From positions 1 through 38,924 of the forward strand of contig CANCMG010000037.1 of assembly GCA_947378965.1 (NCBI GenBank): a stretch of DNA of 38,924 bases, written 5' to 3'. The position numbers and the translations under genes were made by a program. The number at the start of each line of letters is the position of its first letter. Positions within the stretch are counted from its first letter, which is position 1. Shown here piece after piece: positions 18,288 through 38,770 of this stretch. The DNA is from Alcaligenaceae bacterium (lineage in GTDB: Bacteria; Pseudomonadota; Gammaproteobacteria; Burkholderiales; Burkholderiaceae_B). The notes under the pieces were generated by a model. The model ran no database searches. It was given only the letters and a program-made list of their open reading frames with translations, and was not told the DNA's origin.

Positions 18288-18398
18288 CAGCGTACGTAGG
18301 TCGTAGGCTTAACTGTTAACACGGGCGCAACTAGCGCACGTAGGTCGTAGGCTTAACTGTTGACACGGGCGCAACTAGCGCACGTAGGTCGTAGGCTT
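18288..18398. repeat. 44-bp tandem repeats duplicating the 3' end of ftsB
   Basis: Read on the minus strand, units start at 18398, 18354 and 18310. The first two full units are identical except for one base. Each begins AAGCCTACGACCTACGTGCG and carries CTAGTTGCGCCCGTGT. The first unit includes the codons KPTTYVR and the stop of ftsB; the second repeats them in non-coding DNA and the third is a partial, decayed copy. No T-rich terminator is seen in the gap to the convergent TadE-like gene (18246-18374). Confidence 0.95.
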
Positions 18399-18737
18399 GG
18401 CGTTTGGCGCCGGCGCGGCTGGGCGATTGGGCTTGGTTGAGGGCTTAAGTTCGGGAGGCTTCACGTCAGGAGGCAACACCTGAACAAAGAGCTCACCTTG
18501 GCGCATCATGCCGAGCTCGGCTCGGGCACGTTCTTCGGCAGCCTCGGTACCCGTTCGCAAATCATCAACCTCAGCCAACAACGCGACGTTACGCGCACGC
18601 AAGCCGTCGTTGATGCCGCGTTGGGTGGCAACGTGCTCTTGCATATCCCAGACAGACAGCCAACCGCCCCGACCCATCCACAAGGGATATTGGATCAGAC
18701 CAGCGAGCGCGACCAGCACCAATAGCAAAAGACGCAT
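18375..18737 (-). CDS. ftsB: Cell division protein FtsB
   Basis: FtsB is a bitopic division protein of the FtsQLB complex. The ATG at 18737 (MRLLLLVLVALAGLIQYPLW) matches the family N-terminus and has an AGGTGG site just upstream; the frame extends to a GTG 12 bases earlier. The 120 residues have a transmembrane helix at about 2-22, then MGRGGWLSVWDMQEHV and a coiled coil RNVALLAEVDDLRTGTEAAEERARAELGM. The tail is Pro/Lys-rich. The last codons lie inside a 44-bp tandem repeat, so the extreme C-terminus (KPTTYVR) may be of recent origin. It is the last gene of the pyrG-kdsA-eno operon. Confidence 0.93.
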   Translation of the reverse strand: MRLLLLVLVALAGLIQYPLWMGRGGWLSVWDMQEHVATQRGINDGLRARNVALLAEVDDLRTGTEAAEERARAELGMMRQGELFVQVLPPDVKPPELKPSTKPNRPAAPAPNAKPTTYVR

Positions 18738-18798
18738 ACCACCTCGCACTTGCCAACAGGACTAAAAACGCCCTTCAGACAAGCCATTCGCGCAACAT

Positions 18799-20085
18799 TT
18801 AGCGCAGGTTGTAAAAAGCCTCAAGACCAGGATAAGTGGCCACTTCGGCGAGTTCTTCTTCGATTCTGAGTAGCTGATTATACTTAGCCATGCGATCTGA
18901 GCGTGACAACGAGCCCGTTTTGATCTGCATGGCATTTGTGGCTACGGCGATATCGGCAATCGTTGAATCCTCGGTTTCGCCCGAACGATGTGACACGACC
19001 GCAGTATAACCAGCGCGCTTGGCCATTTCAATGGCGGCGAAGGTTTCAGTCAAGGTGCCAATCTGGTTAATTTTGATCAAAATCGAGTTTGCGACACCGC
19101 GCTCGATGCCCTGCTTCAAGATTTTAGTGTTTGTCACAAACAAATCATCACCGACCAGCTGAATTTTGCGACCCAACTGTTCGGTCAGGTGTTTCCAACC
19201 ATCCCAGTCGTTTTCAGCCATACCGTCTTCGATCGTGATGATTGGGTATTTATCACACCAAGTCGCTAGCAAATTGGTCAACTCTTTTGAGGTCAGTGAA
19301 ATCCCGCCCTCGCCTTCAAGGGTGTATTTACCATCGCGATAAAACTCAGAGGCCGCACAATCCAGACCCAAGGCGATTTGCGTGCCGGGCTCGTAACCCG
19401 CATTTTCGATGGCCCGCAAAATCAATTGAATCGCCGCCTCGTGGTTAGGCACGTTAGGCGCAAAACCACCCTCGTCACCAACCGCCGTCGACATCCCTTG
19501 ATCGTGAATGATTTTTTTCAGCGCATGGAAAGTTTCGGCGCCCATTTGCATGGCTTGCCTGAAGCTTTTTGCGCCCACCGGCAAAATCATGAGCTCTTGC
19601 ATATCAAGAGTATTGTTGGCGTGCGCCCCGCCGTTGATCACGTTCATCATTGGCACCGGCATACTCATCGGGCCACTGCCGCCAAAATAGCGATATAACG
19701 ACAAACCAGATTCGTCGGCCGCAGCGCGCGCAACTGCCATACTGGCGGCCAAAATAGAGTTAGCCCCCAAACGCGACTTACCTTCTGTGCCATCAAGTTC
19801 AATCAGAGTGCGATCCAAAAAGGTTTGCTCTTGCGCATCTAAGCCCATCAGCGCCTCAGAGATTTCGGTATTGAGATTTTCAACAGCCCGCAGCACCCCT
19901 TTACCCAAATAGCGTGATTTATCACCATCGCGCAGTTCGATCGCCTCGCGGCTTCCGGTCGAGGCACCCGATGGCACCGAGGCACGACCCATCGCGCCCG
20001 ATTCAAGCAAGACATCGCATTCGACAGTGGGATTACCACGTGAGTCAAGAATTTCGCGTCCGATAATATCTACGATTGCACTCAT
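18799..20085 (-). CDS. eno: Enolase
   Basis: Converts 2-phosphoglycerate to phosphoenolpyruvate in glycolysis, and in many bacteria is also part of the RNA degradosome. The 428 residues have the usual length. The N-terminus [20 protein letters not shown] is diagnostic. Metal and substrate residues are in [22 protein letters not shown] and [10 protein letters not shown], and the enolase signature [14 protein letters not shown] precedes [17 protein letters not shown] site precedes the ATG. It starts 36 bases after kdsA and is followed by ftsB, the common beta- and gamma-proteobacterial order. Confidence 0.98.
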
Positions 20086-20121
20086 TTGAAGGTTTCCTGA
20101 ATGATTGAAATTTTGATGACG

Positions 20122-36716: not shown

Positions 36717-36795
36717 GGTCAACGCCCGAGCAAGGGCTCGTGGTCTGCACTCCTGAGGGCCTCCCAGCCTTCAGTTCAATTGAGGGGCGCGCGAT

Positions 36796-37662
36796 ATGAA
36801 ACTCGAAAACAAAGGCATGTTGCTAGGGCTGATCGGTGTCACCTTGTTTGGGCTGACGCTGCCAGCAACACGCATGGCGCTCGAATCTTTTCATCCGATT
36901 TTTATCGCGACGGGTCGTGCACTACTGGCAACCGTATTGGCAGTGATTTATCTTGTTGCTGGTAAACATCGTCGCCCCACCTTTCACGAATTCAAGTACT
37001 TACTGCTTGTTGTCTTGGGCGTCGCGATTGGGTTTCCGGTGTTTACGGCCTTAGCGATGCAACAGGTTGACGCCTCTCATGGCGGCGTCATGCTTGGTAT
37101 CATGCCCTTAACGACTGCAGCCTGCGCTGCGTTATTGTTCAAAGAACGCCCTTCGGTTGGCTTTTGGCTGATGGCCTTACTAGGCAGCGCGCTAGTAATT
37201 GTTTTTTCATTGATGCGTGGCAACGGCAGCTTGCATTGGGCTGACCTATCGCTGCTGCTCGCGGTTGTGACGGGCTCACTCTCGTACGCAACCGGAGGGT
37301 ATCTGGCCAAGTCGCTAGGCGGCCTGCAAGTGATCTCTTGGACGCTGGTCATTTCGGCACCGCTTTTGTTGTGGCCTGCCCTTTGGTTTGCACCGAGCTC
37401 TTGGCAAGCGACAAATACGGCGTGGGTTGGTTTCGTCTATGTCGCACTGATTAGTCAGTACCTTGCTTTTTTACCTTGGTTTAAAGGCCTATCACTCGGC
37501 GGGATCGCTCGCGTGGGGCAAGCACAGTTACTGCAACCCTTTATTACGATCATCGCCTCAGCTTGGCTCATCAGCGAAGTCGTTGATTGGATCACGTGGA
37601 CCTTCGCCATTGCCGTATTTGCAGTTGTTGCTCTAGGTCGTGTACTTGGTGCCAAGCGTTAA
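36796..37662 (+). CDS. EamA/DMT-superfamily transporter
   Basis: A 288-residue membrane protein with about ten hydrophobic segments, in two halves of five helices each, as in EamA (DMT) transporters. The first half starts LLGLIGVTLFGLTLPATRMALES with a Pro-rich motif at the first helix; ALAMQQVDASHGGVMLGIMPLTTAACAALLFKERPS is the typical repeat end. The second half repeats the pattern around LGGIARVGQAQLLQPFITIIASAWLISE. Such proteins export or exchange metabolites; the substrate is unknown. The gene starts 79 bases after the ETF-QO gene. Confidence 0.9.
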   Translation: MKLENKGMLLGLIGVTLFGLTLPATRMALESFHPIFIATGRALLATVLAVIYLVAGKHRRPTFHEFKYLLLVVLGVAIGFPVFTALAMQQVDASHGGVMLGIMPLTTAACAALLFKERPSVGFWLMALLGSALVIVFSLMRGNGSLHWADLSLLLAVVTGSLSYATGGYLAKSLGGLQVISWTLVISAPLLLWPALWFAPSSWQATNTAWVGFVYVALISQYLAFLPWFKGLSLGGIARVGQAQLLQPFITIIASAWLISEVVDWITWTFAIAVFAVVALGRVLGAKR

Positions 37663-37723
37663 ACTGTTAAAGTGCTTTCATCGAAATCGAAATCCGTTAA
37701 TACCAAAAAGGACGAGAGACATC

Positions 37724-38662
37724 ATGCTAGATCCACAAGCCAAAGCCCTGATTGATTTGATGATCGAAAAAGGGATCCCACCGGTACACACACTAACGGC
37801 GACTCAAGCGCGCGAAGCCTACGTGCAACGTCGTTTTTTTAGTCAGCCCGAAGCACCCGAAGTCGCCTCAAGCGTTGACACCGATATCCCGGGCCCAGCC
37901 GGCAAAATTACAGTGCGTGGTTATCGTCCCAAAGGCAGTGTGGCTTCAACGGTATTACCAGCGCTTGTTTACTATCACGGTGGTGGTCATGTAATTGGTG
38001 ATATCGATACGCATGATGTGCTGTGCCGCACGCTTTCAAATCTGGCGCACTGTGCGGTGTTTTCAGTGGACTACCGACTGGCCCCTGAAAATGTGTTTCC
38101 AGCAGCGTCAGACGACTGCGTGGCTGCCACCAAGTGGGTGCATGCCAATGCAACCGCACTCAAGGTTGACCCAGCACGTATCGCCGTGGGCGGTGACAGT
38201 GCCGGCGGTCATTTAGCCGCAGTCGTTGCCCTGTCGTTAAAAGCTGACAATAGTTTTAAGCCCGTCTTGCAGCTTCTGATTTACCCCGTCACTGACCCAA
38301 GTTCAGAACGAGAATCGATGCGCACCAATGGCCAGGGCTATATGCTGACCAAAGAATCGATGGATTACTACTACGGCGCCTACATGCCTGAAAAATGGAT
38401 GCGCAACGATTGGCGAGGCGCCCCAATGCTCGCCAAAGACCACTCTGGCTTGGCGCCGGCCTTCGTCATGACAGCAGGCTTTGATCCGCTGCGCGACGAA
38501 GGTGCCGACTACGCAGATAAGTTAACGATGGCGGGCGTGCCGACTCAATACGTTTGCTTTGAGCGCCAGATCCACGGCTTCATCACCATGGGCCGCATCA
38601 TCGACGAGGCCAACACCGCCGCCGAACTTTGCGCGGCGGCGCTACGCGCTAAGTTTAAATAG
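37724..38662 (+). CDS. HSL-family alpha/beta hydrolase (esterase)
   Basis: The hormone-sensitive-lipase group (family IV) esterase has the oxyanion motif HGGG at residues 85-88, the nucleophile Ser159 in GGDSAGGHLA, the acid Asp254 in GFDPLRDEG and His284 in RQIHGFITMG. ATG 37724 (MLDPQAKALIDLMIEKGIPP) gives 312 residues and has an AAAGGACGAG ribosome binding site; the frame is open to 37640 but that stretch overlaps the EamA gene. It hydrolyses short-chain esters; the natural substrate is unknown. Its last codons (LRAKFK) and stop lie at the start of a block of 34-37 bp tandem repeats. Confidence 0.94.
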   Translation: MLDPQAKALIDLMIEKGIPPVHTLTATQAREAYVQRRFFSQPEAPEVASSVDTDIPGPAGKITVRGYRPKGSVASTVLPALVYYHGGGHVIGDIDTHDVLCRTLSNLAHCAVFSVDYRLAPENVFPAASDDCVAATKWVHANATALKVDPARIAVGGDSAGGHLAAVVALSLKADNSFKPVLQLLIYPVTDPSSERESMRTNGQGYMLTKESMDYYYGAYMPEKWMRNDWRGAPMLAKDHSGLAPAFVMTAGFDPLRDEGADYADKLTMAGVPTQYVCFERQIHGFITMGRIIDEANTAAELCAAALRAKFK

Positions 38663-38770
38663 CCATCGCGCGGCACTGCGCGCTAAGTTTAGGTAGCTGT
38701 CGAGCCGCACCGCGCGTGAAGTCTTAGGGGTGGTCACGCGCGGCACCGTGTGCTAAATCTAGGTAGTTCT
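38631..38770 (+). repeat. 34-37 bp tandem repeats duplicating the 3' end of the esterase gene
   Basis: Units start near 38631, 38668, 38702 and 38738. The first contains the esterase 3' end (GCGCGGC, then CGCGCTAAGTTTAAATAG). The next three repeat GCGCGGCAC or a variant, then a decayed form of the coding end with CTAAGTTTAGGTAG in unit 2 and CTAAATCTAGGTAG in unit 4. Unit 3 is the most diverged. Confidence 0.88.

Follow-up and report, generated by a model that had tools for sequence, protein, structure and literature searches.

Tandem arrays across stop codons in an Alcaligenaceae genome: probable products of frequent short duplications and purifying selection

Introduction

Why do tandem repeats with mutually unrelated units begin within the last codons of several genes on one contig? 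The question is raised by a 38,924-nucleotide stretch of DNA from an Alcaligenaceae bacterium (GenBank assembly GCA_947378965.1, contig CANCMG010000037.1), analysed here at its full length and referred to as the window. It is contig C37 of genome G000, a draft assembly of 4.50 Mb in 189 contigs, and its enolase shares 91% identity with the Achromobacter animicus enzyme and 89% with the enzymes of Bordetella ansorpii and Alcaligenes faecalis, which points to the Alcaligenaceae. Four arrays detected in the window with Tandem Repeats Finder (TRF) have a first unit that takes in the end of a gene:

18289..18398, minus strand: 44-bp array, 2.5 copies, 96% matches; unit 1 holds the last 24 bases of ftsB, including the stop codon
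26388..26484, minus strand: 40-bp array, 2.4 copies, 94% matches; unit 1 holds the last 19 bases of gsiD, including the stop codon
32983..33106, minus strand: 38-bp array, 3.3 copies, 85% matches; unit 1 holds the last 24 bases of the 3-oxoacid CoA-transferase subunit B gene, including the stop codon
38636..38716, plus strand: 34-bp array, 2.4 copies, 80% matches; unit 1 holds the last 27 bases of a LipP1-family lipase/esterase gene, including the stop codon

NCBIfam models matched above their cut-offs identify FtsB, GsiD, 3-oxoacid CoA-transferase subunit B and the LipP1-family lipase, as well as HolA, whose gene precedes a further array described below. The gsiD array runs at its distal end 2 bases into the next gene (peptidase family S58), and degenerate copies of the esterase array continue to about position 38770. 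All six arrays named in a preliminary description of the window were recovered in place by TRF, and its reading that the first unit at these four genes holds the last codons and the stop was confirmed. The consensus units of the window loci, judged by eye, are mutually unrelated, and the ftsB array region matches its own genome once only. Therefore, a dispersed family of the MIRU or REP/BIME type was rejected.

The unusual feature of this genome is its array load, which is concentrated in one branch of the genus. We consider it likely that the arrays result from a duplication process that is frequent in this lineage and blind, or nearly blind, to gene ends, followed by purifying selection.

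Results

Position of the arrays relative to genes

Arrays with a period of 18-100 bp and at least 70% matches were called with TRF in 60 stretches of 20 kb from G000 together with the window (1.239 Mb in total); the coding share of this genome is about 86% according to a dicodon gene caller. This yielded 110 arrays, with 30 inside a gene, 47 between genes, 22 across a stop without a start codon, 6 across both a stop and a start, and 5 across a start without a stop. Their architecture, head-to-tail copies of a 10-100 bp unit, is that of intergenic minisatellite or variable number tandem repeat (VNTR) arrays. Periods are mostly 18-47 bp; periods of at least 50 bp are scarce (9 of the 80 non-coding arrays), and no array with a period above 100 bp was found by TRF.

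Uniform placement would be expected to give 88.7 arrays inside genes, 7.8 between genes, 8.3 across a stop and 8.6 across a start, and the observed numbers are 30, 47, 28 and 11. The largest number of stop-crossing arrays in 500 such simulations was 15, and in the subset with at least 85% matches, 15 of 58 arrays cross a stop. Stops are enriched, intergenic DNA is enriched more, and genes are avoided. The suggestion that the same geometry recurs at several loci beyond chance was thus upheld on the 1.239 Mb sample, although the fixed phase to the stop codon that was also looked for did not appear. The stop position within the unit is uniform across the 28 stop-crossing arrays, with in-gene fractions of 0.04-1.15 (capped at 1, mean 0.51; Kolmogorov-Smirnov p=0.93).

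The period is divisible by three in 26 of 30 in-gene arrays, compared with 25 of 80 non-coding arrays. Under a genome-wide neutral null, in which a unit may be placed anywhere except wholly within a gene, 11.6 start-only arrays would be expected, and 5 were observed. If a duplication across a stop is harmless, then any stop phase, frame-keeping survivors within genes, and avoided starts are predicted, and all three hold.

The preliminary description also noted that identity between copies falls with distance from the gene. The fall itself is real, with the first unit pair more alike than the next in 15 of 18 stop arrays of at least 2.3 copies when anchored on the gene side. However, the same trend is found from the far side in 14 of these 18 (3 reversed, 1 tied), and among 32 intergenic arrays of at least 2.3 copies it is seen in 24 from the left and 23 from the right. 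Decay that is equal from both ends reflects how arrays end rather than outward copying from the gene, and a gene-to-outside polarity is therefore ruled out.

A dense cluster of these arrays occupies a 40-kb region (L114 with L214; G000:C13:1-40000), where six arrays span a stop codon and one more is found 20 bases past a stop.

Array history at orthologous loci

Comparison with relatives by alignment covered ftsB, the CoA-transferase and esterase loci, and three further window loci. The three further loci are:

5090..5160, plus strand: 30-bp array, 2.4 copies, 90% matches; starts 31 bases past the holA stop, with no overlap
13250..13351, no strand assigned: degenerate 24-bp array, 4.2 copies, 74% matches; lies in a convergent gap and adjoins the response regulator stop
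9364..9458, plus strand: 45-bp in-frame duplication found by TRF within the N-terminus of open reading frame (ORF) 9352-9939

The ftsB array is absent in alignments with G009, G008 and G015. In G030, the same gene has a two-copy stage whose distal copy matches the distal copy of G000; it seems from these alignments that the oldest ftsB duplication predates the split of G000 and G030, and that a further copy was added later. Similarly, there is no array at the CoA-transferase locus in G009 or G010, none at the esterase locus in G009, and none at holA in G009, and the 45-bp segment of ORF 9352-9939 is single-copy in G009 and G008. G009 has a much shorter response regulator gap; that of G008 is also shorter and contains a short repeat of its own.

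Additional comparisons concern copy number, here always between species and not between strains. Arrays L121:35365, L113:3703 and L141:14453 exceed their G030 orthologues by exactly 38, 38 and 19 bases. In G008, array L180:1711 has exactly two 19-bp units more than its G009 counterpart, and a 39-bp array, stop-crossing in G005, is 38 bases longer in G030. In total, 69 pairings were made; 58 with more than 10 unaligned flank bases on a side were not used, which left 11 clean pairings. Six of these differ by whole units (within one base) and one by nothing (L124:1473 against G010). A recurrent duplication process in this lineage, one of the explanations put forward in the preliminary description, is supported by these data: the alignable window arrays represent insertions when set against close relatives, and a further three exceed a relative's array by exactly one unit. 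Some arrays are common to relatives and older, and some gaps have changed by more than whole units.

Two other differences were observed along the window. Between the flanking orthologues, the interval compared, neither G009 nor G010 has the block at 25304-33087, which holds the S58-family peptidase, gsi-type transporter genes and a gene at 31857-32900; the sequence of both picks up again close to the CoA-transferase array. The gap preceding the small ORF 9019-9195 (window 8750-9020) shows length differences of up to about 150 bases among congeners, and G000, G008 and G010 contain short arrays in it.

Array load across the genus

The comparison set consisted of 31 further genomes of the genus (32 with G000), one genome per species. 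All-N stretches L172 and L173 (G011) and L233 (G026) were excluded, and G007, G013 and G021 were unsampled. A close group of G008, G009, G015 and G030 was defined from identities and synteny. G005 and G026 were set apart post hoc, after the load counts had been seen.

Non-coding arrays with a period of 28-100 bp number 53 in the 1.239 Mb of G000, 8 in 0.431 Mb of the close four, and 2 in 0.167 Mb of G005 and G026. None was found in 0.760 Mb of the 21 other congeners, which have 7 arrays of period 18-27 bp. Over the full period range of 18-100 bp, the density per 100 kb is 6.46 in G000, 4.88 in the close four and 1.19 in the rest with G005 and G026 counted in (11 arrays in 0.927 Mb, 3 of which cross a stop). 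Stop-crossing arrays are likewise unevenly shared, with 28 in G000, 5 in the close four, 3 in G005 and G026, and 0 in the 21 others. The load is uneven within the clade as well, from 9 non-coding arrays in 67 kb of G015, the highest, to a low 3 in 128 kb of G009, although the samples from these relatives are small. Among other Burkholderiales, 80 loci (0.549 Mb) hold 4 non-coding arrays of period 18-100 bp, or 0.73 per 100 kb, with one crossing a stop; this outgroup is a non-random sample of one neighbourhood, around enolase, in 80 genomes.

Folding and terminators

If the arrays served as hairpins or terminators, stable stem-loops might be expected. The 3' ends that carry arrays fold like others, with a mean z-score of -0.47 (n=28) compared with -0.33 for 119 random 3' ends (p=0.72), and 23 units fold like 120 random units (p=0.88). 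A hairpin or terminator element was rejected on these grounds. A scan for consensus terminators found no gene-strand site inside the four stop arrays, but over the window it returned sites at about the shuffled rate (30 versus 26.1 and 31 versus 27.4) and is thus uninformative.

Breakpoints and repair genes

Duplication between existing direct repeats should leave an overhang equal to the repeat. Breakpoints were compared in arrays with no more than 2.2 copies and 88% matches or better, 24 of them in G000 (5 in-gene) and 11 in other genomes. In 21 of the 24 G000 arrays, the overhang, counted from the end of the second copy, is -3 to +3 bases; the remaining three have -8, -11 and -20, shorter runs that probably stem from divergence or indels. 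In the 11 arrays of other genomes, the overhang ranges from -6 to +7. By this measure, breakpoint homology in two-copy arrays is slight or absent.

Genes for end joining and repair were searched in the 32 genomes of the genus. The Ku family (PF02735) was found in 0 of 32, with Bacillus subtilis positive as a control. MutS was matched in 30 of 32 genomes, RecJ in 26 and XseA in 30, and all three are present in G000. Exonuclease I was found in 0 of 32 genomes, and SbcC gave only matches under the family cut-off. RecJ was not found in the drafts G008, G015 and G026, nor in G007, G013 and G020, and is present in G000, G009 and G030. No gene examined separates the high-load genomes from the rest, and loss of a repair gene was rejected as the cause.

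One difference within a repair gene coincides with array load. Relative to G010, the variable linker of MutS is longer by 23 residues in G009, G008, G015 and G030, and by 32 in G000 (L242; G000:C7:58500-61700), and in an eight-genome alignment the insertion is lacking in G010, G003 and G002. However, G009 carries the insertion and yet has a low load, and mismatch repair is not known to act on loops as large as these array units. The insertion was rejected as a cause, and its match with the load may be coincidental.

Discussion

The process that we favour would make short head-to-tail duplications, mostly of 18-47 bp. A duplication that includes the stop codon would leave the protein unchanged, with the first copy still terminating the gene. 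Within a gene, a duplication would survive mainly when its length is a multiple of three, and one across a start codon would copy the start and would mostly be lost. Later copies would be gained and lost one unit at a time; the free copies would diverge, and coding constraint would hold the copy within the gene. For the two-copy arrays, our best guess is an origin largely or wholly independent of breakpoint homology, for example by fill-in of offset nicks followed by joining, which would need another joining route since no Ku was found. Both the role of selection as the cause of the pattern and the molecular source of the duplications are what we infer. It is conceivable, though we regard it as doubtful, that the sub-clade acquired a distinct process, one that makes duplications of about 28-47 bp with no breakpoint homology and without Ku, acts mainly between co-directional genes, and accounts for about 4 non-coding arrays per 100 kb.

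Several observations weigh against a process blind to gene ends, or limit how closely it can be read. The neutral null expects 15.5 stop-crossing arrays, compared with 28 observed, a number reached in 0 of 400 simulations. Gap type matters as well: leaving aside 2 of the 80 non-coding arrays that lie at a stretch edge and have no gap type in these tests or in the null, 58 arrays fall in 763 co-directional gaps, 7 in 153 convergent gaps and 13 in 142 divergent gaps, or 0.66, 0.30 and 0.35 arrays per 1000 available positions, respectively. In convergent gaps, 5 of the 7 arrays cross a stop, with 3.1 expected. Additionally, 4 of the 11 clean pairings differ by non-unit lengths (three at window position 13250 and one at a G015 array), and the gene calls come from a simple, purpose-written caller. 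The cut-offs of the breakpoint set hide homology above about one fifth of a unit, and arrays of 2.3-2.6 copies, which include three of the four window stop arrays, may have started from longer homology or may include an incomplete third copy.

The excess at stops would be explained directly if translation or transcript ends provoked copying of the adjoining DNA, for instance through a stalled ribosome, an R-loop or transcription end. Such stop-directed duplication gains from the excess over the null, from the convergent-gap arrays that cross a stop, and from the preference for co-directional gaps, in which stop-only arrays number 16 against 10.5 expected and all stop-crossing arrays 22 against 17.0. 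Part of the excess over the null, however, arises because the density of arrays per position in co-directional gaps is about double that of the other gap types. In the same gaps, arrays touching no gene (33 against 30.5) fit the neutral expectation and start-only arrays are depleted (3 against 10.5). Convergent gaps, where two 3' ends meet, should be the richest if gene ends were the target, but they have the lowest density, no higher than that of divergent gaps with no 3' end. The stop phase is uniform, decay within arrays has no polarity, and 47 of the 80 non-coding arrays touch no gene. End-directed duplication, one of the processes that the preliminary description put forward, is thus not supported, and we consider stop-directed copying improbable.

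Even less probable, in our view, is a selected function, in which the repeats would mark transcript ends, protect transcripts from decay or serve as spacers, taking the role of intrinsic terminators. The preference for co-directional junctions would suit it, as would the lack of consensus terminators on the gene strand in the four arrays, were that scan not at chance level. In contrast, the unit sequences are unrelated, the 3' ends that carry arrays fold no better than random ones, and close relatives lack arrays at the same genes; the comparison of orthologous 3' ends that had been suggested as a check therefore speaks against it.

Ordinary slipped-strand mispairing between pre-existing short direct repeats, at a rate raised in this clade, competes with our reading for the first duplication only and is compatible with a selection filter. 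It remains a reasonable minority explanation. Once two copies exist, differences of one unit fit slippage, and the failure to find exonuclease I in the 32 congeners and RecJ in G008, G015 and G026 could be taken in its favour. However, the whole genus lacks exonuclease I, and G000 has RecJ, so that neither explains the load of G000. The overhang near zero in most two-copy arrays is, by our estimate, about what chance matching would give, and classical slippage, which had also been proposed for the window, is not favoured for these arrays. An assembly artefact might be suspected in a draft of so many contigs, and we find it scarcely credible: the copies differ among themselves, and neither the frame filter, nor the one-unit differences from separately assembled relatives, nor the ftsB intermediate of G030 is expected from misassembly.

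Overall, duplication that is largely indifferent to gene ends, followed by purifying selection, gives the geometry at the gene ends a rather ordinary reading. This filter does not account for the bias towards co-directional gaps or for the residual excess at stops.

Comparison with known systems

The arrays belong with bacterial minisatellite arrays. The MIRU elements of mycobacteria are repeats of gene junctions, some of which overlap stop or start codons, and they form a dispersed family of related sequence; unlike these, the units described here are unrelated. A literature search for tandem repeats that overlap or span a stop codon returned no match.

Closer parallels in architecture are the Wolbachia arrays VNTR-105 and VNTR-141, which are likewise intergenic, arranged head-to-tail and variable in copy number. 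Their units hold hairpins that are assumed by the authors of the report to trigger slippage (PMC3287509), whereas the units found here fold no better than controls. Tolerance at stop codons is shared with the TAACTGA direct repeats of marine Beggiatoaceae. These are intergenic, with 13 cases that overlap the stop of the upstream gene, and the authors state that insertion in coding sequences succeeded mainly at the protein periphery (PMC4679880). However, TAACTGA is a fixed heptamer that, in the table rows of that report, mostly faces start codons, and here each array has its own unit.

Closest in spirit are the repeats of Ehrlichia ruminantium, whose non-coding DNA is likewise repeat-rich. Both genomes hold more non-coding tandem repeats than usual, and in both the arrays gain and lose copies; about 64% of the Ehrlichia genome is reported to be coding (PMC10710844). 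The present genome differs in its higher coding share and in its short units. It illustrates clearly how repeats can build up at stop codons in nature by passive accumulation, and it cautions against reading function into repeats at gene ends. Additionally, the sharp contrast between sister groups within the genus means that what causes short tandem duplications in bacteria can be addressed by comparison and by experiment.

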